From assembly GCF_000711725.1 (NCBI RefSeq), contig NZ_JONP01000007.1, forward strand, positions 1-64,000: a stretch of 64,000 nt of DNA. Reading direction: 5' to 3'. The notes beneath the pieces are model-generated. The model did no database searches. It was given only the letters and a program-made list of their open reading frames with translations, and was not told the origin of the DNA. This DNA is from Roseomonas aerilata DSM 19363 (lineage in GTDB: Bacteria > Pseudomonadota > Alphaproteobacteria > Acetobacterales > Acetobacteraceae). Below are positions 2,254 through 63,228 of the stretch, piece after piece; position 1 is the stretch's first letter; every line of letters starts with the position of its first letter. Position numbers and translations under genes: made by a program.

Positions 2254-2468
2254 TGGCGACTCCGGGGGAGAGAATGAATTCTCTCCCCCAGACCCCCACT
2301 CATCTTTTTCTCTCTGTTGGAAATACTGGTTGGCCGGTGCGCCTCGGGTCTTGGACCCGAGGCGACTGCATGTTCAGGAAGGTTCCGCGACAGCCAGACG
2401 GGGGTCCAGGGGCCTCAGGCTCCTGGCGGGAGAGGTCCGGAGAGGGCAGAGCCCTCTCTGGTCACTCC
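2254..2468 (+). repeat. FHR-1, four-hairpin repeat, A-to-F orientation
   Basis: Palindrome A at 2264-2289 (12-bp arms, loop GA) is followed by CATCTTTTTCT, palindrome C at 2341-2363 (GCCTCGGGTC-N3-GACCCGAGGC), spacer GGTTCCGCGACAGCCAG, imperfect palindrome E at 2406-2426, and F at 2439-2460. It fills the gap between two convergent stop codons. The TCA that is the stop of the MFS gene (TGA on its strand, 2462-2464) lies in the terminal GGTCAC of the element. Confidence 0.9.
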
Positions 2469-3661
2469 GCAGGCCGTCCCCTCGCTGAAAGAGCGACCCG
2501 GAACGCCACCTGTCCGACCAGCGCGGCCCCGGCCATAACGAGGGCCGCCGAGAGGGCAGCGTGGGACCCGAGGCCGGCGAGGGCGGAGCAGACCGCGCCG
2601 ACGCTCATCTGCACGAAGCCGTAGAGGCCCGAGGCGGAGCCGACGACGCGCGGGTTCACGCCGATCGCCTGCCCGAGGGCGGAGGGTCCGCCGACGCCCG
2701 TGCAGATGGTGAAGGCGAACATGCAGCCCATTGCCCAGCCGACCGTGAGGCCGCCCGAGAGCACCACGGCCAGGAGGAGAAGGGCGGAGGCAAGGCTGGC
2801 GGCGCCGGCCCAGCGCAGCACGCCGTCGAGCGAGGCGCGGCCGATGACGCGGCTGGCCAGCGCGTTGCCGAGGGAGATGCCGATGACGAGGATGGCGAGG
2901 TAGATTCCGACCTCGTGCTCCGGCCGGCCGAGGTCGCGGAAGATAAAGGGTGCGGCGCTGAAGAAGGCGTAGGCCGCCGTGGTCATGCAGCCGCCGAGCA
3001 GGGCGTAGCCGAGGAAGACGGGCGAGACCGCGAGGCGCGCGTAGTCCCGCATGATGGTGGCGGCCGCGAGGCCGGTGGAGCGGCCGGTTTCCGGCAGGAG
3101 GCGCCAGGTGAAGGCGAGGTTGGCGAGGCCGAGCGCGCAGAGCAGCAGCAGCACCACGCGCCAGCCGGCGGTGGCCGCGACCGCCGCGCCGACGAGGGGC
3201 GCGAGGCCGGGGCCGGCGGTGACCATCAGGTTCAGGAGCGCGAGCCGGCGCGCGGCCTCCTTCGCGGCGGAGGTGTCTCGCACGATGGCCCGCGCCAGGA
3301 CCACACCGGAGCAGCCGCCGAGTGCCTGGAAGAGCCGCGCGACGACGAGGGTGCCGGCGTCGGGCGCGAGGCCGGCGAGCAGGCCCGCCACCGTGTAGAG
3401 GCCGAGGCCCGCCATCAGCACGGGGCGGCGCCCGAAGCGGTCCGCCAGCGGGCCGTAGAAGGGTTGGCCGAGCGCGAGGCCGAGCACGTAGAGGCTGACG
3501 GTGAGCTGCATGGCGCCGGGGGAGCCGCCCAGCGCCTCGGCCGCCTGGGGCAGGGCGGGGACGAAGATGTACATCCCGACCGTGCCGCTGAAGGTGATGG
3601 AGGCGAGGAGCCAGAGGGGCACCCGGACTGGCGCGGGCTCGGCGAGCGGGGTCTCGCTCAT
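2462..3661 (-). CDS. MFS drug-resistance exporter, Bcr/CflA type
   Basis: A 399-residue, 12-helix major facilitator superfamily antiporter of the DHA1 Bcr/CflA group, predicted to export drugs or small metabolites across the inner membrane using the proton gradient. The signature loop between helices 2 and 3, GPLADRFGRRP, is at about residues 70-80, and helix 5 carries the motif-C-like GPGLAPLVG. The start gives a short cytosolic N terminus (MSETPLAEP). It is divergent from grpE, in the position where many genomes carry hrcA, so no HrcA repressor gene is adjacent here. The specific substrate is not inferable. Confidence 0.88.
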   Translation of the reverse strand: MSETPLAEPAPVRVPLWLLASITFSGTVGMYIFVPALPQAAEALGGSPGAMQLTVSLYVLGLALGQPFYGPLADRFGRRPVLMAGLGLYTVAGLLAGLAPDAGTLVVARLFQALGGCSGVVLARAIVRDTSAAKEAARRLALLNLMVTAGPGLAPLVGAAVAATAGWRVVLLLLCALGLANLAFTWRLLPETGRSTGLAAATIMRDYARLAVSPVFLGYALLGGCMTTAAYAFFSAAPFIFRDLGRPEHEVGIYLAILVIGISLGNALASRVIGRASLDGVLRWAGAASLASALLLLAVVLSGGLTVGWAMGCMFAFTICTGVGGPSALGQAIGVNPRVVGSASGLYGFVQMSVGAVCSALAGLGSHAALSAALVMAGAALVGQVAFRVALSARGRPAE

Positions 3662-3893
3662 GCGGGGTGGCCGGGCCGGGGGGCGGCGATGGGGTGGGGC
3701 GGGGCCGGGCGGGGGCCGGGGGGGGCGAAGGGTGGCAAGGCGTCGGAAAAGCTACGCCCCGGGATGCTGCGCCGCAACACGCCTTGGCGCACCGGCTTGT
3801 CCCGCCGCCCACCGGCCCCTAGGTGATGCGCCGATACGCGCCGCCCCGAGGGCGCCCCCGCGCAGCCCCTGAAGGGCCAGGAAAGAACGATTG

Positions 3894-4448: not shown

Positions 4449-4454
4449 GCTTAG

Positions 4455-6726: not shown

Positions 6727-7872
6727 ATGGCCAAGCGTGATTACTACGAGGTGCTGGGCGTCGCCCGGGACGTGAACGAGGACGGCTTGAAGAAGGCCTT
6801 CCGCAAGCTCGCCATGCAGCACCACCCCGACCGCAACCCCGGCGACAAGGCGGCCGAGGCGAAGTTCAAGGAGGCCAACGAGGCCTACGACGTCCTCAAG
6901 GACGCCGAGAAGCGCGCCGCCTACGACCGCTACGGCCATGCCGCCTTCGAGGGCGGCGGTGGTGGCGGCGGTGGCGGGCCCTTCGGCGGCTTCGCCGGTG
7001 GCGGGTTCGAGGACATCTTCGAGCAGATGTTCGGCAACCTGAACGCGCGCGGCGGGCGGGGCCAGCAGAACAGCGGCCGCGGCTCCGACCTCCGCACCGA
7101 GGTGACGATCGGGCTGGAGGAGGCCTTCGCGGGCACCAAGACCACCATCCGCGTCCCGTCCTCCGTCACCTGCGACAACTGCGCGGGCACGGGGGCCGAG
7201 GGCGGCAAGGCGCAGACCGACACCTGCGGCACCTGCAAGGGCGCCGGCAAGGTACGGGCGCAGTCCGGCTTCTTCCTGGTGGAGCGCAGCTGCCCCACCT
7301 GCGGCGGCACGGGCCGCATCATCAAGAACCCCTGCAAGGTCTGCCAGGGCGCCGGGCGGGTGGAGCGCGAGCGCAACCTCAGCGTCACCATCCCCGCGGG
7401 CGTCGAGGAGGGCACGCGCATCCGCCTGGCCGGCGAGGGCGAGGCCGGGCTGCGCGGCGCACCGCCGGGCGACCTCTACGTCGATATCGGCATCCGCCCC
7501 CACCCGATCTTCCAGCGGGAGGGGAACAACATCTTCATCCGCGTGCCGCTTCGCATGACGCAGGCGGCGCTCGGTGGCGCGGTGGAGGTGCCGAGCATCG
7601 ATGGCGGCCGCGCGCGCGTCTCCATCCCCTCCGGCACGCAGGCGGGGGACCAGTTCCGGCTGCGGGGCAAGGGGTTCTCGATCCTGCGCAGCGCGGCGCG
7701 GGGGGACATGTACGTGCAGGTCTCCGTCGAGACGCCGCAGAACCTGACGGCGAAGCAGCGCGAGCTGCTGGAGCAGTTCGAGGCGGAAGCGACGTCGGAC
7801 AGCCGGACGAGCCCGGAGAGCGAGGGGTTCTTCTCCCGCGTGAAGGAGTTCTGGGACGGGCTGGGGCGGTAA
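6727..7872 (+). CDS. dnaJ: Co-chaperone DnaJ (Hsp40)
   Basis: A 381-residue type I J-protein that stimulates DnaK ATP hydrolysis and delivers substrates. The J domain (1-70) carries HPD at 33-35; a long Gly/Phe region with a polyglycine run follows (about 75-110). The zinc domain has four CxxCxGxG repeats ([32 protein letters not shown]). The C-terminal substrate-binding domains are full length. ATG 6727 follows ACGGGAACAGAA. It is the last gene of the chaperone cluster; a solo A palindrome of the FHR family sits 17 bp after its stop. Confidence 0.97.
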
Positions 7873-7917
7873 GGCTCCGGTGGCTTCCGGGGGAGAGAAG
7901 ATGTTCTCTCCCCCGCC
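7873..7917 (+). repeat. Solo A end of the FHR family
   Basis: GGCTCCGGTGGC, similar to the terminal inverted repeat of other copies, is followed by a perfect palindrome A at 7889-7914 (GGGGGAGAGAA, loop GATG, TTCTCTCCCCC). None of the C, E or F palindromes follows. It probably serves as the dnaJ terminator hairpin, though no U tract is present. Confidence 0.7.
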
Positions 7918-14184: not shown

Positions 14185-14399
14185 CGCTGGTGGCCCCCGG
14201 AGAGGGCTCCGCCCTCTCCGGACCTCTCCCGCCAAGGGCCTGAGGCCCTTGGATCCCCATCTGTGGGCCCTTTCCTGATCATGCAGTCGCCTCGGGTCAT
14301 CGACCCGAGGCGCACCGGCCGTCCAGTATTCCCAACTCGAAGAAAAAGATGAGTGGGGGTCTGGGGGAGAGAATTCTTTCTCTCCCCCAGGGTCACCCG
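14185..14399 (-). repeat. FHR-2, four-hairpin repeat, F-to-A orientation
   Basis: Order on the plus strand: terminal repeat GCGCTGGTGGCC (14184-14195), F 14199-14219, E 14232-14252 (CCAAGGGCC-TGA-GGCCCTTGG, perfect), C 14289-14311, linker GAAAAAGATGAGTGGGGG, A 14363-14388, then GGGTCACCCGCGC. It fills the whole gap between the convergent dnaQ and maf stops; the terminal TCA is the maf stop codon on the minus strand. Confidence 0.93.
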
Positions 14400-16216: not shown

Positions 16217-17266
16217 ATGGACCCCGCGGATAAGCCCTTCCTGAGAGCCCTGGCCGGCGAGGCCGTCTGGCCGCCGCCGATCTGGCTGATGCGCCAGGCG
16301 GGGCGCTACCTGCCCGAGTACCGCGCGACGAAGGAGAAGGCGGGCGGCTTCCTCGAGCTCTGCCTCAACCCCGAGCTCTCGGCCGAGGTCACCTTCCAGC
16401 CGCTGCGCCGCTTCCCGATGGACGCGGCCATCCTCTTCACCGACCTGCCGATGCTGCCCTGGGCCATGGGGCAGGGGCTGCGCTACGGGCAGGGCGGCAA
16501 CGACGGGGTGGGGCCCATCCTGGAGCCCGTGTGCGACGCCGCCGGACTCGCCGCCCTTCGCCCGGGGAACGCCGCCCGCCGCGCGGCCCCGATCATGGAG
16601 ACGGTCTCCCGCATCCGCGCCGGGCTGGAGAGGGACCACCCGGGCACCGCCCTGATCGGCTTCGCGGGCGCCCCCTGGACGGTCGCCTGCTACATGATCG
16701 ACGGCCGCGGCGGTCACGGCTTCCCCGTCGCGCGCGGGATGGCGGAGGACGACCCCGCTTTCCTCGAATCCCTCTTCGAGATCCTCATCGAGGCGGCCGA
16801 GCACTACCTCGTCGCCCAGGCCGAGGCCGGGGCGGAGGCGCTGATGCTCTTCGACTCCTGGGCCGGCCTCCTCCCGCCCGAGGGCTTCGAGCGCTGGGTG
16901 CTGGACCCCACCATCGTCCTCACCGCACGCCTTCGCGCCCGCCTGGGGCCGGATTTCCCCCTCATCGGCTTCCCCCGCCTCGCCGGGGACGGCATCCCCG
17001 CCTACGCGGCGCGCGCGGGCGTCAACGCGGTGGGGCTGGACGAGACGGTGGACCTCACCGGCCCGCTGCCGGAGGGCGTCACCCTCCAGGGCAACCTCGA
17101 CTCCCGCACCCTCGTGGCCGGCGGGGAGGCGCTGCAGGAGGCCACGGCCCACATCCTCGACGCGATGCGCGGGCGGCCCTTCGTGTTCAACCTCGGGCAC
17201 GGGATCACGCCGGATACGCCGATCGAGCACGTGGCGGCGCTGGTGGAACGGGTGCATCGGGGATAG
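16217..17266 (+). CDS. hemE: Uroporphyrinogen decarboxylase
   Basis: A 349-residue heme-pathway enzyme converting uroporphyrinogen III to coproporphyrinogen III in the cytosol. The signature PPIWLMRQAGRYLPEYR (about 20-36), the aspartate region DAAILFTDLPMLPWAMG, GFAGAPWTVACYMI and the C-terminal FNLGHGITPDTP are all present. ATG 16217 follows AAAGAGGGG. It is the first gene to the right of the predicted origin. hemH and hemJ, which usually follow soon after, lie about 16 kb away behind an accessory block. Confidence 0.97.
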   Translation: MDPADKPFLRALAGEAVWPPPIWLMRQAGRYLPEYRATKEKAGGFLELCLNPELSAEVTFQPLRRFPMDAAILFTDLPMLPWAMGQGLRYGQGGNDGVGPILEPVCDAAGLAALRPGNAARRAAPIMETVSRIRAGLERDHPGTALIGFAGAPWTVACYMIDGRGGHGFPVARGMAEDDPAFLESLFEILIEAAEHYLVAQAEAGAEALMLFDSWAGLLPPEGFERWVLDPTIVLTARLRARLGPDFPLIGFPRLAGDGIPAYAARAGVNAVGLDETVDLTGPLPEGVTLQGNLDSRTLVAGGEALQEATAHILDAMRGRPFVFNLGHGITPDTPIEHVAALVERVHRG

Positions 17267-17270: not shown

Positions 17271-17545
17271 GGCGCTGGTGGCCCCGGGGAGAGGAAGAGG
17301 GAATTCTTCCTCTCCCCGGACCCCTCACCATCATCTTTTTCCTCGAATTTGAGTGGCTTAGGGGCCTGTGCGCCTTGGGTCGTGGACCCGAGGCGACTGC
17401 ACGCGCAGGAAAGGCACCTGGAAGGACCCGGCCTTTGGTCATCGTATCCGCGACAGCCAGATGGGGATCCAAGGGCCTCAGGCCCTTGGCGGATCCGAGG
17501 CACTGCCTCGGATGTCCGGAGAGGGAGGAGCCCTCTCCCGGAGCC
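17271..17545 (+). repeat. FHR-3, four-hairpin repeat with extra palindrome G (long A subtype)
   Basis: The terminal repeat GGCGCTGGTGGCC (17271-17283) is followed by long palindrome A (17284-17319, arms GGGGAGAGGAAGA), CATCATCTTTTT, C 17372-17394 (one mismatch), a longer spacer with an insert absent from short copies, E 17469-17489 (perfect), G 17494-17512 (TCCGAGGCA-N-TGCCTCGGA) and F 17518-17538. It lies between tandem genes hemE and the SDR; nothing else is visible in this 358-bp gap. Confidence 0.9.
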
Positions 17546-21193: not shown

Positions 21194-21991
21194 ATGCCCG
21201 ACTTCGAGAGCGCCCCCGGCGTCACCCTCCACTACACGGTGGACGACTTCACCGATCCCTGGACGCCGGCGCCCACCGTCATCCTCCTCCATGGCCTGGC
21301 GGAGAGCGGGGAGGCCTTCCGCGCCTTCGTGCCCTACCTCGCCCGACGGCACCGCGTGGTGCGCCTCGACAACCGCGGCTACGGCCGCTCCCCGGCGCTG
21401 CCCGCCGATCATCCCTGGCGCTTCGACAGCCTGGTTGCGGACGTGGTTGCGCTGATCCGCCACCTCGGGATCGAGCGCGCGCATCTCGTTGGCGGGAAGA
21501 TCGGCGGCACCATCGCGCTGGCCACCGCCGCACGGCACCCGGAACTGGTGGGGCGGCTGGCCGTGCTCGGGGGCCCGGCCTCGCTGACGGGCATGATCAC
21601 CCGCACCCCCGCCTGGCGCGCCCAGATCGCGGCCGAGGGCGTGCGCCCCTGGGTGCGCGCCTCCAATGCCGGCCGCCTGGGCACGCGGATGAGCCCCGCC
21701 CAGTTGCAATGGTGGGAGGACCTGATGTCCGGCACCGCCGCCTCCACGCTGGAGGGCTTCCTCCAGATGGTGCCGACGGTGGACGTGACGGCGGAGGTGG
21801 AGCGCATCCGCGCCCCCACCCTCGTGGTCACCACCACCGGCAGCGGCCTCGGCTCGGCGGACGAGGTGCGCGCCTGGCAGGAGCGCATCCCGGACTCCCG
21901 CCTCGTCGTGCTGGAGAACGACTCCTACCACGTCGCCGCCTCCGACCCCGACGAGACGGCGGCGCTGGTGCGGGACTTTCTGGCGGAATGA
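21194..21991 (+). CDS. Alpha/beta-hydrolase-fold protein lacking the nucleophile serine
   Basis: A 265-residue alpha/beta-hydrolase-fold protein. The oxyanion HGLAESG and strand/turn RLDNRGYGRS are normal, and a late His (NDSYHVA) is present. At the nucleophile elbow the sequence reads LVGGKIGG, so Lys102 stands where GxSxG needs Ser. Either it uses other chemistry or it is not a hydrolase. Its stop overlaps the start of the next gene (ATGA), so it is coupled to the GFA-family protein. The start 21194 follows CCGAGGATCCC. Function unknown. Confidence 0.82.
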   Translation: MPDFESAPGVTLHYTVDDFTDPWTPAPTVILLHGLAESGEAFRAFVPYLARRHRVVRLDNRGYGRSPALPADHPWRFDSLVADVVALIRHLGIERAHLVGGKIGGTIALATAARHPELVGRLAVLGGPASLTGMITRTPAWRAQIAAEGVRPWVRASNAGRLGTRMSPAQLQWWEDLMSGTAASTLEGFLQMVPTVDVTAEVERIRAPTLVVTTTGSGLGSADEVRAWQERIPDSRLVVLENDSYHVAASDPDETAALVRDFLAE

Positions 21992-22398
21992 GCGCCCCTC
22001 TCACGGGCCGCTGCCTCTGCGGCGCCGTGCGCTTCACCCTCGCCACGCGGCCCCTCGCTGCGCGCGCCTGCTGGTGCCGGACCTGCCAGTACCTCTCCTC
22101 CGGCAACGCCTCCGTCGGCGCCATCTTCCGCCGTGCCGACCTCACCCTCACCGGCGAGACGGCCGAGTTCACCAGCGCGGCCGACAGCGGCACCCCCGTC
22201 CGCCGCCGCTTCTGCCCCCGCTGCGGCACGCCCCTCTTCGCCGAGGCGCCCAACGCGCCGGACCTCCTCCTCGTGCGGGCGGGGGCGCTGGACGATCCGG
22301 AAGCGGCCCGGCCGGAGCGCACCATCTGGACCCGCTCCGCGCCCGCCTGGGGGCTGATCGACCCGGGGCTGCCGTGCTGCGAGGGGCAGCCTTCCTGA
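21988..22398 (+). CDS. GFA-family (CENP-V/Gfa) zinc protein
   Basis: A 136-residue small zinc-binding protein of the glutathione-dependent formaldehyde-activating (Gfa/CENP-V) fold. Metal ligands are visible in GRCLCGAVRF, the ARACWCRTCQ segment and FCPRCGTPLF. Most members have unknown substrates; true formaldehyde-glutathione adduct activity is only shown for a few. It overlaps the upstream alpha/beta protein by 4 nt, implying linked function. Confidence 0.9.
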   Translation: MSAPLTGRCLCGAVRFTLATRPLAARACWCRTCQYLSSGNASVGAIFRRADLTLTGETAEFTSAADSGTPVRRRFCPRCGTPLFAEAPNAPDLLLVRAGALDDPEAARPERTIWTRSAPAWGLIDPGLPCCEGQPS

Positions 22399-22401: not shown

Positions 22402-22637
22402 GGCGGCGCGGGCTGCCCCGGGGAGAGGAAGAAGGAATTCTTCCTCTCCCCGGCCCCCTCTCCATCATCTTTTTCTTCGAATTTGAACGGTCCTGCGGCC
22501 TGTGCGCCTCGGGTCGTGGACCCGAGGCGACGGAACGATCAGGAAGGTTCCGCGACAGCCAGACGGGGGTCCAGGGGCCTCAGGCCCTTGGCGGGTGAGG
22601 TTTGGAGAGGGCGGCGCCCTCTCCAAGGCCACCAGCG
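22402..22637 (+). repeat. FHR-4, four-hairpin repeat, A-to-F (long A subtype)
   Basis: Palindrome A 22418-22453 with a central GAATTC, then CATCATCTTTTTC, C 22506-22528 (perfect), spacer GGTTCCGCGACAGCCAG, E 22571-22591 (one mismatch), F 22604-22624 (GGAGAGGGC-GGC-GCCCTCTCC) and the terminal repeat GGCCACCAGCG at 22627-22637. It separates two tandem genes. Confidence 0.92.
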
Positions 22638-24459: not shown

Positions 24460-24464
24460 CGACC

Positions 24465-24666
24465 CTAGGGGAGGAAGAAGGACTTCTTCCTCCCCCAGAC
24501 CCCCTCCATCATCTTTTTCGAGTTGAAGATGCTTGGCGGCCGGTGCGCCTCGGGTCATGGACCCGAGGCGACGACCCACAAAGGAAGGTTCCGCGACAGC
24601 CAGAAAGAGAAAGATGAGGGAGGGTCCAGGGAGGGAGAATTCCTTCTCCCTCCCTGGAGTCACCAA
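24465..24666 (+). repeat. FHR-5, chimeric repeat with an A palindrome at both ends
   Basis: Left palindrome A 24468-24495 (13-bp arms GGGGAGGAAGAAG; the central GAATTC has become GACTTC), then CATCATCTTTTTC, C 24547-24569 and spacer GGTTCCGCGACAGCCAG. Instead of E and F, it continues with AAAGATGAGGGAGGGTCC and an inverted second A at 24626-24657 (arms CCAGGGAGGGAGAA). It looks like a recombinant of two oppositely oriented copies. It lies between convergent genes. Confidence 0.85.
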
Positions 24667-29181: not shown

Positions 29182-29188
29182 ACGGGGA

Positions 29189-30475: not shown

Positions 30476-30476
30476 C

Positions 30477-30690
30477 CGGGGCTGCTGGAGAGGGCTCAGC
30501 CCTCTCCAGCCAAGGGCCTGAGGCCCTTGGATCCCCGTCTGGCTGTCGCGCAACCTTCCTGAACGTGCAGCCGCCTCGGGTCATCGACCCGAGGCGCACC
30601 GACTACTCAGTGTCTCCAACAGATAGAAAAAGATGAGTGGGGGTCCGGGGGAGAGAATTCGTTCTCTCCCCCGGGGGCCACAAGCGCCGC
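30477..30690 (-). repeat. FHR-6, four-hairpin repeat, F-to-A orientation
   Basis: F 30487-30507 (GGAGAGGGC-TCA-GCCCTCTCC), E 30510-30530 (perfect), C 30573-30595 (perfect), linker AGAAAAAGATGAGTGGGGG, A 30647-30672 and the terminal GGCCACAAGCGCC. It starts within a few bases of the glycosidase stop and ends just before the stop of the convergent Bug gene. Confidence 0.93.
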
Positions 30691-30691
30691 C

Positions 30692-31675: not shown

Positions 31676-31728
31676 GCGCGCCTCCCCGTCATTGTTTGTG
31701 GCGAGACTGCCGCCGCCCCTGCCGGAGA

Positions 31729-32886: not shown

Positions 32887-33104
32887 GGCCAGAGAGGGCT
32901 CCGCCCTCTCTGGCCCTCTCCCGCCAAGGGCCTGATGCCCCTGGACCCCCATCTGGCTGTCGCGGAACCTTCCCGAACAAGCCGTCGCCTCGGGTCCACG
33001 ATCCGAGGCGCACCGATCGCCCAGCATCTCCAATCGATAGAAAAAGATGAGAGGGGGTCCGGGGGAGAGAATTCTTTCTCTCCCCAGGGGCCACAAGCGC
33101 CAGC
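32887..33104 (-). repeat. FHR-7, four-hairpin repeat, F-to-A orientation
   Basis: F 32889-32913 (CCAGAGAGGGC-N3-GCCCTCTCTGG), E 32924-32944 (mismatched), C 32987-33009 (one mismatch), linker GAAAAAGATGAGAGGGGG, A 33061-33085 and terminal GGGGCCACAAGCGCC. It lies between tandem genes: F touches the hydrolase stop and A lies about 80 bp ahead of hemH. Confidence 0.92.
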
Positions 33105-35444: not shown

Positions 35445-35657
35445 GGCCGGTTCTCTGGAGAGGGCGCTGCCCTCTCCAGGCCTCTCCCGCCAAGGGCCTG
35501 AGGCCCCTGGACCCCCATCTGTCAGCTCTTCCTGAACATGCAGTCGCCTCGGGTCCACGACCCGAGGCGCACCGTCCACCCAGTATTCGCAACTCGAAGA
35601 AAAAGATGAGTGGGGGTCTGGGGGAGAGAATTCATTCTCTCCCCCAGAGTCACCCGC
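35445..35657 (-). repeat. FHR-8, four-hairpin repeat, F-to-A orientation
   Basis: F 35457-35477, E 35490-35510 (one mismatch), C 35546-35568 (perfect), linker GAAGAAAAAGATGAGTGGGG, A 35620-35645 (perfect, 12-bp arms, GAATTC near the centre), terminal GAGTCACCCGC. It fills the gap between the hemJ stop and the stop of the convergent CDC48 gene. Confidence 0.93.
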
Positions 35658-35660
35658 ACC

Positions 35661-37934: not shown

Positions 37935-38204
37935 CCCGCCCTCGCTTCACAGGTTGTGACCATGATGCCCCCCGTGAAGGCGAGCGCGGTTTGAACGCGC
38001 GCGGGGACGCTTCGAAGGCATGGCGGAATCGGCGGGCAGCCCCGAACTTCCCTGATGCCATCATAGGTTATCGAAAACGCCCGACCCCCGCGCCGGTCCG
38101 CCTCATGGTGGCCGAAACCGGGCGAACACCGTCATGCGCCCGCCGGAATGGGGGTCATGATGGGGGATGAAAGGCCGGGGTGGTCCCGGCTCAGAGGTCC
38201 CGCG

Positions 38205-38459: not shown

Positions 38460-38670
38460 CCTCGCCAGAGAGGGCTCTGCCCTCTCCGGCACCTCACCCG
38501 CCAAGGGCCTGAGGCCCCTGGACCCCCATCTGACGCCCTTCCTGAAGGTGCAGTCGCCTCGGGTCATCGACCCGAGGCGCACCAACCGCCGATCCGCCCA
38601 AACAGATAGAAAAAGATGAGAGGGGGTCCGGGGGAGAGAATTCTTTCTCTCCCCCGGGGCCACAAGCGCC
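38460..38670 (-). repeat. FHR-9, four-hairpin repeat, F-to-A orientation
   Basis: F 38467-38487, E 38501-38521 (one mismatch), C 38556-38578 (perfect), linker GAAAAAGATGAGAGGGGG, A 38630-38655 and terminal GGGGCCACAAGCGCC ending at 38670, where its last base is the first base of the reverse-strand stop (CTA) of the transglycosylase gene. Confidence 0.93.
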
Positions 38671-39413: not shown

Positions 39414-39573
39414 GGGCAGGGACCGGCAGAGCCCTCATCCTGCCAGAACGGCGCCCGCCGGGCAGCGCGATTCCGCACGCCGCCCGCGGAAGGAGCCGCG
39501 CCGTGGCCCAACGCCAACAGCACCGCCGCGTTCCCCTCCGCATCGCCCCAGGGTGGGCGGGGAGAAGATGACC

Positions 39574-40146: not shown

Positions 40147-40175
40147 ACTCGCGCCCAATTTTTCCCATCTACGGC

Positions 40176-40205
40176 TTGACGCGCGGCTGCGCAGCCCCTT
40201 AGGGT
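40176..40205 (+). promoter_or_regulatory. Putative promoter of rho
   Basis: TTGACG (40176-40181) and TAGGGT (40200-40205) are separated by 18 bp in the 224-bp gap before rho. It would give a leader of about 160 nt, long enough for the autoregulation known for rho leaders in other bacteria. Predicted from sequence only. Confidence 0.45.
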
Positions 40206-40370
40206 TCTGGCCGGTGCAAGCGCCAGGGGCCCGTGGGCTCCGCCGGCCGCGCCACCGCCCCGTGCATCGCCATCGGAATCCCGCCGCCCGGCGGAGGGCC
40301 CGGTCCATCCGGCCTCTATCCAGGTTCCGCGCACCCTCTCCCCCTCGGCCCCGCCGATCGAGACCACTGA

Positions 40371-41645: not shown

Positions 41646-41670
41646 GGCGACGGGGTGGGATCAGTCCCGC

Positions 41671-41909
41671 CTCGCGGCCTTGGAGAGGGCAGAGCCCTCT
41701 CCGCGCGTCCGAGGCAGTGCCTCGGACCCCGCCAAGCCTGAGGCTCCTGGACCTGCATCTGGCTGTCGCGGAACCTTCCTGAACACGCAGTCGCCTCGGG
41801 TCATCGACCCGAGGCGCACCGGCCGCCGAACAATCCAAACAGATAGAAAAAAATGAGTGGGGGTCCGGGGGAGAGAATTCTTTCTCTCCCCCGGAGGCCA
41901 CCAGCGCCA
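41671..41909 (-). repeat. FHR-10, four-hairpin repeat with palindrome G
   Basis: F 41682-41702, G 41707-41727 (GTCCGAGGCA-G-TGCCTCGGAC), E 41732-41750 (shortened by two bases), C 41793-41815 (perfect), linker GAAAAAAATGAGTGGGGG, A 41867-41892 and terminal GGCCACCAGCGCC (41896-41908). It lies between rho and a convergent small gene. Confidence 0.92.
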
Positions 41910-41921
41910 AGCTCAACAGCA

Positions 41922-41958
41922 AAGGGGCCTGTCCCGGTCATCCCGGAACAGGCCCCTT
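41922..41958. terminator. Bidirectional hairpin between rho and the secreted protein gene
   Basis: AAGGGGCCTGT (41922-41932) pairs with ACAGGCCCCTT (41948-41958), a perfect 11-bp stem; CTTCTTC follows on the plus strand and TTTGCTGTT on the minus strand. It could serve either gene. Confidence 0.7.
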
Positions 41959-41991
41959 CTTCATATCAGCCCTCCGAGGAGGGGGCGCCTA

Positions 41992-42258
41992 TCAGCCGCC
42001 CGAGCCGCCCTGCTGCGAGGGGGCCTGGATGCCCTGCGTGCCCGTCTGCGGGCTCGGGGGCCCACCGGCCGGTCCCGGCGCCATCGGCGAGGCAGCGGCG
42101 CCGGGCACGCCAGCGCCCTGGTCCACGGTCACGCCGCCGGGCGCGCGGGCCGTCGGGGCGGTGGAGACGGAGGGCTGCGGCGCCGGCGACTGCGCGAAGG
42201 CGGCGGGCGCGGCGATCAGGCCGGCGGCGAGAGCGAGGGCAAGGCTGGTCTTCTTCAT
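41992..42258 (-). CDS. Small secreted Pro/Ala/Gly-rich protein
   Basis: 88 residues. The signal peptide (MKKTSLALALAAGLIAAPAAFAQ in sequence) is textbook and the start has GGAG just upstream. The mature part (about 65 residues) is low-complexity Pro/Gly/Gln-rich with no recognisable motif and ends GGSGG. The function is unknown. Divergent from the GNAT gene. Confidence 0.72.
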   Translation of the reverse strand: MKKTSLALALAAGLIAAPAAFAQSPAPQPSVSTAPTARAPGGVTVDQGAGVPGAAASPMAPGPAGGPPSPQTGTQGIQAPSQQGGSGG

Positions 42259-42381
42259 CTTTTTCTCCAGTTCGGTTGCGGTCTGCGAGGGAGCAACGCG
42301 CCCTTCCGACCCCGGTTTCCCGCCACGCCTCCATCGGCCAGGATTGTTCCTGGCGACTGGCCGGGCGGCACAGGAGGCGGA

Positions 42382-43116
42382 ATGGCGGAAACGATGGCGG
42401 ATATCGCGGCGCTGGAACGGGCGGCGCTGAACGCGGTGCCGGCGCCGCGCGTCACGTGGGAGGGCGGCTTCGTCGTCCGCGCGTTCCTCGGCGGCACCGG
42501 ACGCGCGAACGCCGCCTGCTCGCTCGACCCGCGGGAGGATCCGGGCCTGGAGGCACGGGTCGCGCGGATCGAGGTGCATTACGCACGCCTTGGCCTGCCC
42601 TGCCGCTTCCGTTCCACCCCCCTGGATCCGCCCGGCCTCGCTCCCCTGCTGCTGGACCGCGGCTACGACGAGGCGGAGGGCGCGGTGGTCATGCAGGCCG
42701 CGCTCCCCCCGGCGGAGGACCCAGCCGCGCGCTGGCTCGCCGGCCCCGAGCCCGAATGGCTGTCGGTCCTCGCCACCGTCGAGTACCAGGGTGCCGCCCG
42801 ACAGGCGGAGAAGGAGGGCGCCGTGCCCCTGCTCGCCCGCCCCGCCACCTGGCTCATCCTGCGGGAGGGCGGTTCGGCCGCCGCCTGCGGCCACGCGGTG
42901 GCGGACGGCGAGCTCTGCGGCCTCGCCGTGCGGCCGGAACGCCGACGGCAAGGTTGGGGCCGCCGCTTGCTCGGCGCCCTCGCTGGCTGGGGCGCTGGGC
43001 AGGGGGCCACCACCTGCTGGCTCCAGGTCGCGCCCGGCAACACCGCCGCGCGCCGCATCTACGCCGCGGCCGGCTTCGAGGAGGCCTACCGCTACCGCTA
43101 CTTCGTCAGGGCGTAG
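42382..43116 (+). CDS. GNAT-family N-acetyltransferase
   Basis: A 244-residue acetyl-CoA-dependent transferase. The C-terminal GNAT core is clear: LCGLAVRPERRRQGWGRRLL (motif A, in two pieces) and the beta-bulge/helix NTAARRIYAAAGFEEAYRYRYF. The N-terminal half is a diverged second GNAT-like unit. ATG 42382 follows CAGGAGGCGG. The acceptor is unknown. It stands alone between two convergent or divergent neighbours. Confidence 0.87.
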   Translation: MAETMADIAALERAALNAVPAPRVTWEGGFVVRAFLGGTGRANAACSLDPREDPGLEARVARIEVHYARLGLPCRFRSTPLDPPGLAPLLLDRGYDEAEGAVVMQAALPPAEDPAARWLAGPEPEWLSVLATVEYQGAARQAEKEGAVPLLARPATWLILREGGSAAACGHAVADGELCGLAVRPERRRQGWGRRLLGALAGWGAGQGATTCWLQVAPGNTAARRIYAAAGFEEAYRYRYFVRA

Positions 43117-43174
43117 GCGGCGTCAGAACAGGAAATTTTCCGGCCTTCGTGGAACGGCGAACTGGCCGGAAAAC

Positions 43175-44149
43175 TTACGGCAAAAGAATGGTGCTGCCGG
43201 TGGTCTTGCGCGCCTCAAGTGCGATATGCGCCTCGGCCGCGTCGCGCAGCGCGTATTTCTGCCGCACCTCGATCTTCACCTTGCCGCTGCTCACGACATC
43301 GAACAGGTCCGCCGCCATGGCCAGCAGGTCCGCCCGCTTGGCCGTGTGCGTCGCCAGCGTCGGGCGCGTGACGAAGAGACTCCCCTTCGCCGCGAGGATG
43401 CCGAGATCCACCCCGGTCACCGGCCCGGAAGCATTGCCGTAGGAGACGAGCAGCCCGAAGGGCGCGAGGCAGTCGAGCGAGGCCTCGAAGGTGTCGCGCC
43501 CGACGCTGTCATAGACCACCGGCAGCCGCGCCCCGCGCGTGATCTCGCTTACCCGCGCCGGCAGGTCCTCGCCCTGCAGGATCACGTGGTCGCAGCCATG
43601 CGCCCGCGCCAGCTCCGCCTTCGCCTCCGTGCCGACGGTGCCGATCACGGTGGCGCCGAGCGCCTTCGCCCATTGAACGAGGATCAGCCCCACGCCGCCC
43701 GCTGCCGCGTGCACAAGGATCGTCTCCCCCGCCTGCACCTTGTAGGTCCGCCGCAGCAGGTACTGCGCCGTCAGCCCCTGCAGCATCATCGCCCCGGCCG
43801 TCTCGAAGGGGATGCTGTCGGGCAACTTCACGAGCACGTCCGCGCGGATCGTGCGCGCCTCGGCATAGGCGCCGATCGGGCCCATGGCATAGGCCACGCG
43901 GTCGCCCGGCTTCAGGTCCTCCACGCCCTCGCCCACGGTCTCCACGGTGCCAGCCGCCTCCATCCCGATCACCGCGGGCATGGAGGGCGCCTTGTAGAGC
44001 CCCGTGCGGAAGTACACGTCGATGAAGTTCAGCCCTACCGCGGCGTGGCGGATGAGCACCTCGCCCGGCTTGGGCGCGGGGAGGGGCACCTCCTCCCAGA
44101 CGAGCTTCTCCGGCCCACCGGGCTCGTGCAGGCGGATCGCGTGGTTCAT
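43175..44149 (-). CDS. NAD(P)H:quinone oxidoreductase (zeta-crystallin type)
   Basis: A 324-residue zinc-free MDR enzyme that reduces quinones by one or two electrons. The N-terminal GroES-like domain has VGLNFIDVYFRTGLY, the nucleotide loop is HAAAGGVGLILVQWAKALGA, and NASGPV follows in the second domain. No zinc-binding cysteines are seen, as expected for this branch. The start overlaps the last 4 nt of the methyltransferase gene, so the two are coupled. No matching operon role is obvious. Confidence 0.92.
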   Translation of the reverse strand: MNHAIRLHEPGGPEKLVWEEVPLPAPKPGEVLIRHAAVGLNFIDVYFRTGLYKAPSMPAVIGMEAAGTVETVGEGVEDLKPGDRVAYAMGPIGAYAEARTIRADVLVKLPDSIPFETAGAMMLQGLTAQYLLRRTYKVQAGETILVHAAAGGVGLILVQWAKALGATVIGTVGTEAKAELARAHGCDHVILQGEDLPARVSEITRGARLPVVYDSVGRDTFEASLDCLAPFGLLVSYGNASGPVTGVDLGILAAKGSLFVTRPTLATHTAKRADLLAMAADLFDVVSSGKVKIEVRQKYALRDAAEAHIALEARKTTGSTILLP

Positions 44150-48451: not shown

Positions 48452-49053
48452 TCACCCCGCCCATCGCTGTTTCACGTGAAACGGGGGAACGGCTCGAAGC
48501 CTTCCTCGCCCTCTTTCTCCGTTGGAACGCCCGCATCAACCTTGTCGCCGAGCGCGATCCCGAAACCCTGCGCCAGCGCCACATCGCGGACTCCCTCCAA
48601 CTCCTCCCCTTGCTGCCCGAGGGCACCGAGCCCGCCGCCGACCTCGGAACCGGTGGCGGCTTCCCCGGGCTGATCCTCGCCCTCGCTGACACCGCCCGCC
48701 CTTGGCACCTCATCGAATCCGACAAGCGCAAGGCGGCCTTCCTCCTCACCGCCTCCGCCGAACTCGGCCTCACCCACGTCACCGTCCACAACGAGCGCAT
48801 CGAGAACACCGTCCTCCCGCCCCTTGCCCTCCTCACCGCCCGCGCCCTCGCCCCGCTCACCCTCCTCCTTGTCCATGCCGCCCGCCTTCTCTCCTCGAAC
48901 GGCGTTGTCCTCTTTCCCAAGGGCCGCAACGCCGAAGCCGAGTTGACCGCCGCTCAGGCGGACTGGACAATGGAGGTCGCGCGCTTCGGGAGCCGCACCG
49001 AGCCGGGTGCCACCATCCTCCGCATCACAGGAATTCACCGTGCCGGGCCCTGA
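48448..49053 (+). CDS. rsmG: 16S rRNA m7G527 methyltransferase RsmG (GidB)
   Basis: A 201-residue SAM-dependent methyltransferase of the small-subunit rRNA. The SAM motif ADLGTGGGFPGLILA and the following LIESDKRKAAFL acidic loop are intact. The start is GTG 48448, overlapping the mnmG stop. The N terminus reads AVSRETGE because a parS site lies in the gene. parA begins inside the last 14 nt. Confidence 0.95.
   Translation: MITPPIAVSRETGERLEAFLALFLRWNARINLVAERDPETLRQRHIADSLQLLPLLPEGTEPAADLGTGGGFPGLILALADTARPWHLIESDKRKAAFLLTASAELGLTHVTVHNERIENTVLPPLALLTARALAPLTLLLVHAARLLSSNGVVLFPKGRNAEAELTAAQADWTMEVARFGSRTEPGATILRITGIHRAGP
48468..48483. promoter_or_regulatory. parS site inside rsmG
   Basis: TGTTTCACGTGAAACG matches the canonical parS at 15 of 16 positions. 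It encodes the VSRET residues at the start of RsmG and lies about 570 bp from parA. ParB would load here to spread over the origin region. Confidence 0.95.
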
Positions 49054-49876
49054 CCGCCCCCTCGCGCCCCGCGCCAAAACCTCTGGTCCGCGCCGCATCG
49101 CGCTCGCCAACCAGAAGGGCGGCGTCGGCAAGACCACCACGGCCATCAACATGGCCACCGCCCTATCCACCACGAAGCGCGTGCTGCTGCTCGACCTCGA
49201 CCCGCAGGGCAACGCCTCCACCGGCCTCGGCGTGCCCCGCAATGAGCGCGGGGAGGGATCCTACGCCCTTCTCGTCGGCGACCGCTCGCTCGGCGAGCTT
49301 ATCCGCCCGAGCAAGATCCCGGGCCTCGACCTCCTCCCCGCCGACAACGATCTCGCCGGCGCCGAGATCGAGATGGTCGGCATGGAGGACCGCGAGCGCC
49401 GCCTCGCCCAGGCGCTGGACCGCGACCCCGCGACCCTCTCCCGCTACGACTACGTCCTGATGGACTGCCCGCCCTCGCTTGGCCTGCTCACGCTGAACGC
49501 CCTCGTCGCCGCCCAGTCCGTGCTCGTGCCGCTGCAGACCGAGTTCTTCGCGCTCGAGGGCATCTCCCAGATGACCCGCACGGTGGACCGGGTGAAGCGC
49601 CTCAACCCCGGCCTCAGCCTGGACGGCATCGTCCTGACCATGTTCGATCGCCGCAACAACCTCTCCGAGCTCGTCGCTCGCGACGTGCGCAGCTTCTTCA
49701 AGGACCGGGTGTACGACACCGTGATCCCCCGCAACATCCGCGTCTCCGAGGCGCCCTCGCACGGCCTGCCCGTGCTGCTCTACGACGTCCGCTCCGCCGG
49801 CGCCCAGGCCTACATCCAGCTCGCCGCCGAACTCCTCCGCCGCGATCGCGCCCGCTCAAAGGAGCGCGCCGCATGA
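49040..49876 (+). CDS. parA: Chromosome partitioning ATPase ParA (Soj)
   Basis: A 278-residue Walker-type partition ATPase that moves origin regions apart. The deviant Walker A is NQKGGVGKTTTAIN (25-38), Walker A' is VLLLDLDPQGNAS and Walker B is YVLMDCPPSLG. The GTG 49040 start has AGGAATTCACC just ahead and overlaps rsmG by 14 nt; the longer start at 49007 is less likely. It is coupled to parB by an ATGA overlap. Confidence 0.96.
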   Translation: MPGPDRPLAPRAKTSGPRRIALANQKGGVGKTTTAINMATALSTTKRVLLLDLDPQGNASTGLGVPRNERGEGSYALLVGDRSLGELIRPSKIPGLDLLPADNDLAGAEIEMVGMEDRERRLAQALDRDPATLSRYDYVLMDCPPSLGLLTLNALVAAQSVLVPLQTEFFALEGISQMTRTVDRVKRLNPGLSLDGIVLTMFDRRNNLSELVARDVRSFFKDRVYDTVIPRNIRVSEAPSHGLPVLLYDVRSAGAQAYIQLAAELLRRDRARSKERAA

Positions 49877-50715
49877 GCCGCAAGCCCGTCCGCCTCGGCA
49901 TGGGCCTCTCCGCCCTTCTCGGAGACGACCCCGCCCCCAGCACCGCCGCCGCCCCGCAGACCCTGCCGATCGAATCCCTCGAACCTGGCCCCTTCCAGCC
50001 GCGCGGCCCCATGGACCCCGAGGCCCTGGCTGAACTCACCGCCTCCATCCAGGAGCACGGCGTCCTCCAGCCTATCCTCGTCCGCCCCAAGCCGAACGCC
50101 CCCGGCACCTACCAGATCATCGGCGGCGAGCGCCGCTGGCGCGCCGCCCAGGGCGCCCGCCTGCACGAGGTCCCCGTCGTCGTCCGCGACATGGACGATC
50201 GCGCCGCCATGGCCGCCGGCCTCGTCGAGAACCTCCAGCGCGAGGACCTGAACGCCCTTGAGGAAGCCGAGGGCTACCGCCGCCTGACGGAGGAATTCGG
50301 CCTCAAGCCCGAGGCCCTCGGCAATGCCGTCGGCAAGAGCCGCAGCCACGTCGCCAACACCATGCGCCTCCTGGCCCTCCCGAACGGCGTCCGCTCCATG
50401 CTTGGCCGCGGCAGCCTCACCGCCGGCCACGCCCGTGCCCTCCTCACGGCGCCGGACCCCCTCCGCCTTGCCGAGCTCGTCGTCACCCGCGGCCTGAACG
50501 TCCGCCAGACGGAAGCCCTCGCCGCCGCCGCCGACCGCCCCCGCAGCGCCGCCCGCCACCAGGATCCTGAGACCCGCGCCCTTGAACGCGAGCTCACCGA
50601 ACGCCTCGGCCTGCGCGTCTCCATCGAGCACCGCGGCAAGGCCGGACGCGTCACCGTCGCCTACCGCGACCTCGACCAGCTCGACGGATTGGTGCGCCTA
50701 CTCCACGGCCGGTAG
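49873..50715 (+). CDS. parB: Chromosome partitioning CTPase/DNA-binding protein ParB
   Basis: A 280-residue ParB that binds parS and spreads by CTP-dependent clamping. The N terminus shows MSRKPVRLGMGLSALLGDD; the CTP pocket motif IIGGERRWRAA, the helix-turn-helix around LGNAVGKSRSHVANTMRLL and a C-terminal dimer domain follow. Its targets are the parS sites at 44866 and 48468. The stop is directly followed by repeat FHR-11. Confidence 0.96.
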   Translation: MSRKPVRLGMGLSALLGDDPAPSTAAAPQTLPIESLEPGPFQPRGPMDPEALAELTASIQEHGVLQPILVRPKPNAPGTYQIIGGERRWRAAQGARLHEVPVVVRDMDDRAAMAAGLVENLQREDLNALEEAEGYRRLTEEFGLKPEALGNAVGKSRSHVANTMRLLALPNGVRSMLGRGSLTAGHARALLTAPDPLRLAELVVTRGLNVRQTEALAAAADRPRSAARHQDPETRALERELTERLGLRVSIEHRGKAGRVTVAYRDLDQLDGLVRLLHGR

Positions 50716-50934
50716 CTGGAGAGGGCTCCGCCCTCTCCAGACATCCGAGGCAGTGCCTCGGATCCGCCAAGATCCTGAGGCCCCTGGACCCGCATCTGTC
50801 CGCCCATCCTGAACATGCAGTCGCCTCGGGTTACCGACCCGAGACGCACCGCCCGCCGAACCACTCAAATAGATAGAAAAAGATGAGAGGGGGCCTGGGG
50901 GAGAGAATTCATTCTCTCCCCCGGATTCACCCGC
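50716..50934 (-). repeat. FHR-11, four-hairpin repeat with palindrome G
   Basis: F 50718-50738, G 50744-50762 (TCCGAGGCA-G-TGCCTCGGA), E 50767-50787 (imperfect), C 50823-50845 (two changes), linker GAAAAAGATGAGAGGGGG, A 50897-50922 (perfect) and terminal GGATTCACCCGCGC, which contains the reverse-strand stop codon of the convergent hydantoinase gene (50927-50929). It starts three bases after the parB stop. Confidence 0.93.
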
Positions 50935-60075: not shown

Positions 60076-60330
60076 GGCAGCGCTGGCGGCATCGGGAAGA
60101 GCGAAAAGGAATTCCTCCTCTCCCCGAACCCCTCACCATCGTCCTCTTCGAGCTCGATCTGTTCACCGGCCAGCGCGCCTCGGATCATCGACCCGCGGCG
60201 ACGGCCCCTTCAGGAAAGTTTGGCGGCAGCCAGACGGGGGCCAGGGTTGGACCTACAGGTCCAACCCTGGCCCCTCGCGGGGTCCGAGGCACTGCCCCGG
60301 GCATCCGGAAAAGGCGGCGCCCACTCCAGC
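60076..60330 (+). repeat. FHR-12, decayed or diverged four-hairpin repeat
   Basis: Recognisable parts: CAGCGCTGGCGGC (terminal repeat), a damaged A around GGAATTCCTCCTCTCCCC, CATCGTCCTCTTC, C 60177-60199 (two changes), spacer GGCAGCCAGACGGGGG, then in place of E a different perfect palindrome 60241-60270 (CCAGGGTTGGACCT, 14-bp arms), a broken G (TCCGAGGCACTGCCCCGG) and a degenerate F (60307-60327). It follows the DUF5666-like gene. Confidence 0.7.
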
Positions 60331-61177: not shown

Positions 61178-62955
61178 ACGGCAAGCCCGCCGGCCCCGGC
61201 CGGCTCCCCGCCCTGCGGATCATGCTGCCCCTGCTTCGCCCCCACGCCGCCCGGGTCGCCGGCGCCGTGCTCGCCATGGGCACCGCCGCCGGCCTGCTCC
61301 TCGTCCTCGGCCAGGGCCTCCGCCACATCGTGGACGACGGCTTCGCCGGACGGGACGGCGTCTCCAGCCTCGACGGCCACGCGCTCACGGTCCTCGCCCT
61401 CGTCGCCCTCCTCGCCGCCAGCACCGCCGCGCGCTTCTACCTCGTCTCCTGGCTCGGGGAGCGCGTCGGCGCCGCGCTCCGCCGCCAGGTCTTCGCCCAC
61501 GCTCTCCGCCTGCCCCCCTCGCACTACGAGCAGCACCGCACCGGCGACGTGCTCACCCTCCTCACCGCGGATACCGAGATCCTCCGCAACCTCGTCGGCT
61601 CCGCCGTCTCCCAGTGGCTCCGCGCCCTCGTCACCGCCCTCGGCGCGCTCACCATGCTCTTCGTCACCAGCCCCCGCCTTGCCCTGCTGGTGATCGCCGT
61701 CACCCCCCTGATCGTCGTCCCCCTGGTCGTCTTCGGCCGCCGGGAACGCCGCCTCAGCCGCGTCGCCCAGGAACGCGTCGCCGACCTCGGCGCCCAGGCC
61801 GAGGAAACCCTCAACGCCATGGCCACCGTCCAGGCCCATGTCCACGAGCCCGCCGACCTCACCGGCTTCACCGAGCGGGCGGAGGAAAGCGTCGCCGCCT
61901 CCCTCGCCCGTGTCCGCGTCCGCGCCCGCCTCCTCTTCAGCATCATCCTCCTCGGCTTCGGCGCCATCACCCTCAGCCTCTGGGTCGGCGGGCGGGAGGT
62001 CCTGGCCGGCCAGCTCACCGGCGGCCAGCTCTCCGCCTTCATCTTCTACGCCGTCCTCGTCGCCACCTCCGTCACCTCGCTCTCCGAACTCTGGAGCGAG
62101 GTGCAGCGCGCCGGCGGCGCCGCCGAGCGCGTCCACGACTTCTTCGAGACCGTCCCCGCCATCCGCCCGCCCGCGAACCCCCGCCCGCTCCCCGTCGCCC
62201 ACCCGAAGGGCAGCCCCATCGGCCGCCTCGCCTTCGAGAACGTCCGCCTCCACTATCCCAGCCGCCCCGACCGCCCGGCGCTGGACGGCGTCACCCTCTC
62301 CGTCGAGCCCGGCGAGACCGTCGCCCTCGTCGGCCCCTCCGGCGCCGGCAAGACCACCCTCTTCCAGCTCGCCCTCCGCTTCCGCGATCCCGACAGCGGC
62401 CGCGTCACCCTCGACGGGATCGACCTGCGCGACGCCGACCCCGCCGCCCTCCGCGCCCGCATCGGCCTCGTGCCGCAAGACCCCGTCATCTTCGGCGCGG
62501 ACGTGCGCGACAACATCCGCTACGGCCGCCCCGACGCCACCGAGGCCGAGATCCGCGCGGCCGCCGAGGCCGCCGACGCCGCCGGCTTCATTGAGGCCAT
62601 GCCCGCCGGCTACGGCACCTTCCTCGGCGAGAAGGGCGTCCGCCTCTCCGGCGGGCAGCGACAGCGCATCGCCATCGCCCGCGCCGTGTTGCGCGACCCG
62701 CCCCTCCTCCTCCTCGACGAGGCCACCAGCGCGCTGGACGCCGAGAGCGAGGCCGCCGTTCAGGCCGCCCTCGCGCGCCTCTCCCGCGGCCGCGCCGTCC
62801 TCGTCATCGCCCACCGCCTCGCCACCGTCCGACGCGCGGATCGCATCATCGTTCTGGAGGCCGGCCGCGTCGTCGCGGAAGGCACCCACGACCGCCTGGT
62901 CGAGGAAGGCGGCCTCTACGCCCGGCTGGCCCGGCTCCAGTTCGCGGCGGGGTAG
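61174..62955 (+). CDS. ABC exporter (fused membrane and ATPase, MsbA-like)
   Basis: A 593-residue half-transporter. Six helices in about residues 20-310, then a nucleotide-binding domain from about 350: Walker A GPSGAGKTT (387-395), Q loop QDPVIF, ABC signature RLSGGQRQRIAIARA, Walker B LLLLDEATSALD and the switch His in VIAHRLATV. It would homodimerise and export a lipid, drug or peptide. The coupled phosphoesterase upstream may be functionally linked, but no substrate can be inferred. The stop is 5 bp from the left end of repeat FHR-13. Confidence 0.92.
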   Translation: MNGKPAGPGRLPALRIMLPLLRPHAARVAGAVLAMGTAAGLLLVLGQGLRHIVDDGFAGRDGVSSLDGHALTVLALVALLAASTAARFYLVSWLGERVGAALRRQVFAHALRLPPSHYEQHRTGDVLTLLTADTEILRNLVGSAVSQWLRALVTALGALTMLFVTSPRLALLVIAVTPLIVVPLVVFGRRERRLSRVAQERVADLGAQAEETLNAMATVQAHVHEPADLTGFTERAEESVAASLARVRVRARLLFSIILLGFGAITLSLWVGGREVLAGQLTGGQLSAFIFYAVLVATSVTSLSELWSEVQRAGGAAERVHDFFETVPAIRPPANPRPLPVAHPKGSPIGRLAFENVRLHYPSRPDRPALDGVTLSVEPGETVALVGPSGAGKTTLFQLALRFRDPDSGRVTLDGIDLRDADPAALRARIGLVPQDPVIFGADVRDNIRYGRPDATEAEIRAAAEAADAAGFIEAMPAGYGTFLGEKGVRLSGGQRQRIAIARAVLRDPPLLLLDEATSALDAESEAAVQAALARLSRGRAVLVIAHRLATVRRADRIIVLEAGRVVAEGTHDRLVEEGGLYARLARLQFAAG

Positions 62956-62960
62956 TGGCC

Positions 62961-63228
62961 GACGCCGGTGGCCCTGGGGAGAGGAAGAAGGAATTCTTCC
63001 TCTCCCCAGACCCCTCTCCATCATCTTCTTCTTCAAGTTTGGATTGCTGAGCGGCCGGTGCGCCTCGGGTCCACGACCCGAGGCGACGACACGCGCAGGA
63101 AGGCCGCCGCTGAAAGCGCCGGCCTCCAATCACCGCATCCACGACAGTCAGATGGGATCCAAGGGCCTCAGGCCCTTGGCAGGTGAGGTCTGGAGAGGGC
63201 AGCGCCCTCTCCAGCGGCCACCGGCGCC
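62961..63228 (+). repeat. FHR-13, four-hairpin repeat with matching terminal inverted repeats
   Basis: The left end GACGCCGGTGGCC (62961-62973) and the right end GGCCACCGGCGCC (63217-63229 read on the plus strand) are inverted copies, sharing the 11 bp CGCCGGTGGCC exactly. Inside are A 62976-63007, CATCATCTTCTTCTTC, C 63062-63084 (perfect), a long spacer, E 63159-63179 (perfect) and F 63192-63212. It fills the gap between two convergent stop codons. Confidence 0.92.

Follow-up and report, generated by a model that had tools for sequence, protein, structure and literature searches.

FHR, an inserted and retained hairpin repeat between convergent genes of Roseomonas aerilata, with a possible two-sided role at mRNA 3' ends

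Why does gene after gene in one stretch of the Roseomonas aerilata DSM 19363 genome end beside the same hairpin-rich sequence, how did that sequence get there, and what could it be doing? The stretch, called the window below, is the 64,000 nucleotides at positions 1 to 64,000 of contig NZ_JONP01000007.1, and the sequence, the four-hairpin repeat (FHR), is apparently a non-coding, hairpin-rich repeat of roughly 200 bases. We found that FHR was gained by insertion and then stayed in place, that it lies close behind stop codons, mostly between convergent genes, and that its hairpin arms stay paired while their bases vary. Our leading reading, held tentatively and with somewhat less than even confidence, is that FHR is an inserted, then retained two-sided RNA 3'-end element between convergent genes.

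Anatomy and placement of the repeat

A preliminary description made from the sequence alone had reported ordered palindromes, A-C-E-(G)-F, joined by spacers and present in both orientations; the order, the spacers and the two orientations were confirmed where it had placed them (Table 1). The covariance model R1 (202 positions, 44 pairs) was built from 11 window copies (alignment A2) and recovered 13 copies in the window with 82-236 bits, 11 of them being the model's own members. Together with one A hairpin standing alone and one A-like fragment, this upholds the copy count reported before. In the consensus, judged by eye, the stems are of 9-16 bp with loops of 3-4 nt; a longer type of A arm is common among the copies, whose length is about 190-260 nt with many indels. 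FHR is not a product of chance, because the best R1 match has an E value of 1e-68 and folding of copy c9 gives z-scores of -5.6 and -7.3 for its two strands. A match by construction is expected for the members of the model, but not for the remaining copies in the genome. Inspection by eye shows degenerate inverted motifs, about GGCGCTGGTGRC ... GYCACCAGCGCC, on the outer sides of A and F, and therefore the unit is longer than A to F. The copy c6 is nearly symmetric since its E-F half is replaced by an inverted spacer and A, which explains why it matches on both strands, and this right half is a sign of module exchange. A long-range helix, GACCCCC/GGGGGTC, appeared in single folds and was discarded because by eye it showed no covariation.

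When R1 was run against the 6.43-Mb genome, with the best 150 of 6866 first-look candidates scored, it gave 148 matches at E <= 1e-3. These correspond to about 141 places, about 135 of them above 50 bits, as 7 rows were by hand count the same copy on the opposite strand. FHR density is high in contig C7, which carries the parS-like site and parAB, and also in C13, C8, C5, C22 and the right part of C2, whereas C1 holds few copies (5 rows in 599 kb). A profile search places C13 (25 in 160 kb) a little above C7 (36 in 257 kb).

Placement was measured on C7 and C13 (417 kb), for which our own codon-usage caller gives 343 genes that do not amount to a validated annotation. Among the convergent junctions 37 of 64 hold FHR, among the tandem ones 17 of 213 and among the divergent ones 3 of 64; 57 of the 58 copies above 30 bits lie in a junction, the remaining one being at a contig start. 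Convergent gaps make up 9.0% of the FHR-free intergenic bases as against 64.9% of the occupied junctions (p 4e-25), and 28 of the 31 convergent junctions of 180-300 bp hold FHR. The median distance from FHR edge to stop in convergent pairs is 17 nt. In tandem pairs FHR lies 19 nt past the upstream stop and 173 nt ahead of the next start (medians), 11 of these copies being A-proximal and 6 F-proximal. Of the 13 window copies, 8 stand at convergent and 5 at tandem junctions. The enrichment at gene 3' ends that had been suspected is thus borne out. The median convergent gap is 229 bp in FHR-dense contigs and 26 bp in 360 kb of the same genome chosen for lack of matches, where 0 of 42 such gaps measure 180-300 bp and some of the longer ones hold a hairpin with a T-run. 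Across a genome region most of the longer convergent junctions are one repeated, structured sequence, and this set of natural replicates can be used to study the 3'-end requirements of convergent genes.

Insertion, retention and constraint on the stems

The history of the copies was read from two relatives. In the diverged relative G009, with flanks 74-95% identical, 0 of 13 mapped junctions hold an FHR of our type; 8 are gaps of 18-83 bp, one of which (C7:79414) has a poor alignment on one side, and 5 hold 778-1928 bp. Over 158 kb of G009 the profile of our own copies found 0 copies and a broader profile 1, and R1 gave 3 weak matches genome-wide. By eye, 4 convergent junctions of the G009 contig compared carry multi-hairpin elements of a subfamily of its own, and one of these stands at the c14 junction (compared via KE2513). 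In the sister species KE2513, with flanks about 94% identical, 43 of 43 mapped junctions are occupied and co-oriented; these represent 43 of 61 own copies on one contig, the other 18 not being mappable there. The short empty sites in G009 and the full occupancy in KE2513 thus show that FHR spread by insertion and then stayed, and the mobility proposed earlier holds over genus time. Own junctions were also set against R. rosea or P. baculiformis in 7 comparisons, of which 2 showed an occupied site, though most of the loci compared were fetched for holding FHR. No target-site duplication was seen, the empty sites coming from genomes too diverged to show one.

Of the 34 pairs formed by full copies of our genome and of KE2513, 17 have the orthologue as best match, 5 have unlike A types and 3 are unlike in the G hairpin; mean identity is 90.3% to the orthologue versus 87.8% to non-orthologues. 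Therefore the positions are stable, and the copies look as if they had either multiplied in a recent burst before the two species split or been exchanged from site to site. As separate observations, small hairpins differ between orthologous copies at the c10 and c11 junctions in KE2513, and small hairpins fill optional slots in columns 46-81 and 281-341 of the alignment A3 described below; single small hairpins look as if they were exchangeable units. One FHR is split (L192:17430-18660, that is C7:81430-82660), with A, C and part of E followed by about 1 kb with a 270-aa open reading frame, presumably of the phytanoyl-CoA-dioxygenase type, and then F; this FHR is whole in KE2513.

Pairing of the arms was examined in alignment A3, which holds 47 copies from 7 genomes (49 were selected for less than 88% identity and two were left out). 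Of its 2013 cells 97.0% are paired versus 93.2% in shuffles, two-sided changes occur in 18 of 45 pairs as against 7.3 +/- 1.6 in shuffles (0 of 500), and pairing falls to 41-59% when the partner is slid. The four free positions of the C stem are perfectly complementary in 104 of 118 occurrences, mainly CGGG, GAGG, CCGG and CGGC. Several variants occur at once in R. rosea and P. indoligenes, and P. baculiformis has 16 CCGG and 1 CGGG. The earlier observation that the arms stay paired while the bases vary is therefore upheld as covariation between species, with controls, for A3 and the C stem alike, that leave the relatedness of the copies in. Between own and KE2513 copies the stem sites differ by 7.5% (223/2973) and the spacer sites by 17.3% (620/3583). 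The shape of FHR is preserved, as if it mattered. A covarying terminal helix was also considered and dropped, because complementarity of the flanks in 81 copies (5.69, versus 4.49 letter-shuffled) was not above that of flanks permuted between copies (5.44 +/- 0.17); judged from the letters, the ends would best be called a conserved inverted motif whose covariation is within the permuted-copy range.

Distribution among relatives and around the origin

Among the matches listed for the C-hairpin pattern in named genomes, 104 of 105 stretches are from Roseomonas or Pararoseomonas, from which we infer that the genome carrying FHR belongs with this group. The sole match outside it among those listed, in Phenylobacterium (L152), has arms that are not complementary and was taken as chance. 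In one draw of genomes R1 had matches in all 14 other members of the genus, in 3 of the 9 further Acetobacteraceae genera and in none of the 16 genomes from outside the family. A covariance-model search of Acetobacteraceae genomes, which the preliminary description had proposed, was run on 150 genomes (3 of the genus; 16 candidates scored per genome, stricter filters) and gave weak matches in 74, that is in 51 of 102 genera, with nothing above 77 bits outside the genus among the matches listed. When ten loci from other genera were inspected by eye, several had the symmetric order hairpin-hairpin-centre-hairpin-hairpin, and the G135 locus has a C-type hairpin with different paired arms. In our leading reading, Acetobacteraceae have a group of composite hairpin elements, and FHR is the version that belongs to one lineage. 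An element of phage or plasmid was rejected on the searches made: with c1 as query, phages gave 0 matches and plasmids 1 partial match over the A region, and the exact C-hairpin pattern had 0 matches in IMG/VR. On the side, L050, L266, L268 (G013) and L270-L275 (other genera) are distinct subfamilies, symmetric multi-hairpin elements of similar design, and G013 has 137 weak R1 matches, many covering about 130 bases.

The window contains a parS-like site. The relative G012, whose chromosome is closed, has such a site at 1.657 Mb, and in 20 samples of this chromosome the prevailing direction of GGGNAGGG turns near the site and a second time between 4.5 and 4.8 Mb. Of the 141 de-duplicated matches in G012 (150 scored), 126 are no more than 1 Mb away from the parS-like site, as against 51.6 expected. 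For matches listed on the main contig the corresponding numbers are 32 of 40 versus 18.5 in G002 (60 matches in all) and 53 of 105 versus 39.4 in G013 (137 in all), which has another subfamily; within 0.5 Mb G013 has 22 versus 19.7 expected. In our genome C7 and its neighbour C13 are among the contigs densest in FHR. On G012, C13 falls at 1.7 Mb, right C2 at 1.4 Mb, FHR-poor left C2 at 5.3 Mb and FHR-poor C1 is colinear with 5.15 Mb. One FHR zone common to all species is not fully borne out, because own FHR loci on C5 and C10 match G012 at 3.08 and 5.04 Mb, which are origin-distal. The strong clustering around parS in one closed chromosome makes position-dependent spread or retention of mobile repeats a testable question.

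Table 1. FHR copies and origin-region features in the window. Empty site means a site without FHR in the relative G009.
Feature	Position	Strand	Bits	Context
A-like fragment	1-22		16.5	
FHR c1	2260..2461	+	236.5	convergent; A faces + gene 1147-2241, F faces - gene 2462-3661
A-type hairpin alone	7888..7915	+	21	model positions 4-31 only; behind stop of gene 6727-7872
FHR c3	14197..14392	-	228.3	convergent junction 14184/14393
FHR c4	17281..17540	+	181.5	G hairpin and ~33-nt insert; tandem, 15 nt past stop of gene 16217-17266
FHR c5	22415..22626	+	215	tandem, behind gene 21988-22398; empty site
FHR c6	24463..24657	+	122.6 (+), 69 (-)	mosaic: A-spacer-C-spacer, then inverted spacer-A; convergent
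FHR c7	30485..30676	-	221.1	convergent junction 30475/30692; empty site (83 bp)
FHR c8	32889..33090	-	223.6	tandem, 3 nt past stop of gene 31864-32886
FHR c9	35455..35649	-	225.4	convergent junction 35444/35661
FHR c10	38465..38659	-	216.9	convergent; + gene ending ~6 nt before (codon-usage caller; missed by first gene calls), - gene 38670-39413 behind; empty site (31 bp)
FHR c11	41680..41896	-	205.7	G hairpin; 35 nt past rho stop (40371-41645); empty site (24 bp)
parS-like site	48468..48483	+		1 mismatch to consensus; marks origin region
parA and parB	49040..50715	+		Pfam AAA_31/CbiA (ParA type), ParB_N, HTH_ParB, ParB_C
FHR c12	50716..50926	-	198	G hairpin; fills whole gap from parB stop (50715) to hydantoinase stop (50927); empty site (18 bp)
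FHR c13	60089..60300	+	82	decayed; tandem
FHR c14	62971..63214	+	195.6	convergent junction 62955/63232; ~33-nt insert; occupied in G009 by an element from another subfamily

Besides parA and parB the window has mnmE, mnmG and rsmG; its rho has the Pfam domains Rho_N and Rho_RNA_bind. At 35661-37934 (-) it encodes a protein of the CDC48/p97 type, in which Pfam shows CDC48 N-terminal domains and two AAA stretches.

Possible role and relation to known repeats

From the anatomy of FHR, with stable stems close behind both stops, no T-run beside them and constrained arms, we infer a two-sided action of the hairpins at the RNA level, which would protect 3' ends or separate convergent transcripts. As the empty sites show, FHR spread by insertion through the genome of an ancestor shared by this species and its sister. 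Each converging mRNA would carry a stable GC-rich hairpin about 17 nt past its stop, A on one side and F on the other, with more hairpins behind. These hairpins would block 3'-to-5' exonucleases after termination, which is probably Rho-dependent, and FHR would keep the two convergent transcription units apart, with selection holding the arms paired and the positions fixed while spacers drift and modules swap between copies. Several findings weigh against this. The two-sided transcription end proposed in the preliminary description was not borne out: there is no T-run directly behind FHR stems, and in a terminator scan of 28000-44000 none of the 3 sites fell within the five FHR copies there, a scan that also missed the hairpin and T-run of rho. 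The copy c11 lies between the rho stop and this hairpin with T-run, which G009 and other relatives have soon behind rho. Since rho's terminator is kept behind c11, FHR was added ahead of a terminator and did not replace one, and therefore it is not needed for termination at rho. Of the stem pairs that differ between own and KE2513 copies, 81 are paired in both; 68 of these changed on one side and 13 on both, where independent changes would give 8.3 two-sided ones. The other 111 are broken in one copy or in both, so that compensation is weak within this species pair. Protection of mRNA does not account for the clustering that G012 shows near the origin, and the placement could arise from target preference or purging alone.

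The main alternative is a selfish element without a host role, of the kind of a miniature inverted-repeat transposable element (MITE), moved by a transposase whose insertion favours gene ends, with stems kept for movement or by gene conversion. We regard this as a serious though less probable explanation. It would account for the inverted end motifs, the empty sites in G009, the lineage-specific sites seen with R. rosea or P. baculiformis, and the orthologue being best in only half of the pairs with A types that differ, which is the pattern that conversion, or a burst not long before the species split, would leave. Against it, no gain or loss is seen in 43 of 43 junctions at about 94% flank identity while the stems are still constrained, and 65% of the occupied junctions fall in a class with 9% of the intergenic sequence; a target-site duplication, too, was not seen, with the limit on divergence given above. 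A chromosome-architecture element of the origin half, in which palindromic DNA bound by a nucleoid protein, a topoisomerase or an SMC-related factor absorbs supercoils between convergent genes, would fit the excess within 1 Mb of parS in G012, G002 and G013, the density of C7 and C13 and the position of the FHR-poor contig that is colinear with 5.15 Mb of G012. We consider it unlikely in view of the origin-distal matches of the C5 and C10 loci and of G013, which has no excess within 0.5 Mb of parS; moreover, the bias may follow conserved gene content, as PMC3733652 describes for GTAG repeats in S. maltophilia and P. syringae. Similarly improbable in our view is a broader scheme in which composite hairpin cassettes found across the family, rebuilt in each lineage from exchangeable stem modules, colonise convergent junctions in the origin half, where they would insulate both transcription and chromosome topology from two sides.

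The preliminary description knew of no earlier account of this family, and none was found for Roseomonas or Acetobacteraceae in the literature searched, most subscription papers being outside its reach. A known RNA family was rejected, as Rfam gave nothing over the gathering threshold for the window, and for one FHR copy 34 matches at E <= 5, all sub-threshold and mostly microRNA models (best mir-14, 27.9 of 53 bits). That description had also likened FHR to repetitive extragenic palindromes (REPs) and bacterial interspersed mosaic elements (BIMEs). GTAG REPs go with a REP-associated tyrosine transposase (RAYT) of the Y1 family, and to our knowledge none is known for CGTC REPs. In the genus, PF01797 (Y1/RAYT) has matches in 0 of 15 genomes, as against 5 of 14 control genomes, and the FHR consensus, compared by eye with the published description, has no GTAG or CGTC tag. 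PMC3733652, a survey of REPs, describes them as palindromes of 20-40 nt that carry a GTAG or CGTC tag and lie in intergenic DNA, mainly downstream of coding regions and between convergent or unidirectional genes; according to it, CGTC REPs have an 8-9-bp stem, a 4-5-nt loop and a tail that is mostly CCA, and are missing in Acetobacteraceae. In the accessible part of PMC2267715 a word search for Acetobacter, Gluconobacter and Rhodospirillum found none. FHR thus resembles REP/BIME and the alphaproteobacterial CGTC REPs, so far as these sources describe them, in being palindromic, intergenic, behind coding regions and mosaic (c6, the G slot, the inserts behind A), but its units are not REPs: they are of about 190-260 nt with 4-5 ordered hairpins and loops of 3-4 nt. 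An ordinary REP/BIME family moved by a RAYT was therefore rejected as highly improbable, as the two defining features, tag and transposase, fail.

Intrinsic terminators share with FHR a GC-rich hairpin behind a stop codon, but FHR has no T-run beside its stems, is a repeated family and at rho was inserted upstream of an existing terminator. The ERIC and Correia (NEMIS) MITEs are likewise non-coding, of about 100-250 nt, intergenic and mobile over species time; FHR differs in its weak end repeats, its several separate hairpins and the lack of a known target duplication. Like BOX and RUP of Streptococcus pneumoniae, FHR is a composite of structured units with an optional unit that is present or not; the convergent placement and the hairpin order are FHR's own. 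We read FHR as a new family of mobile, then retained, putatively two-sided mRNA 3'-end elements, which are REP/BOX-like and not REPs.

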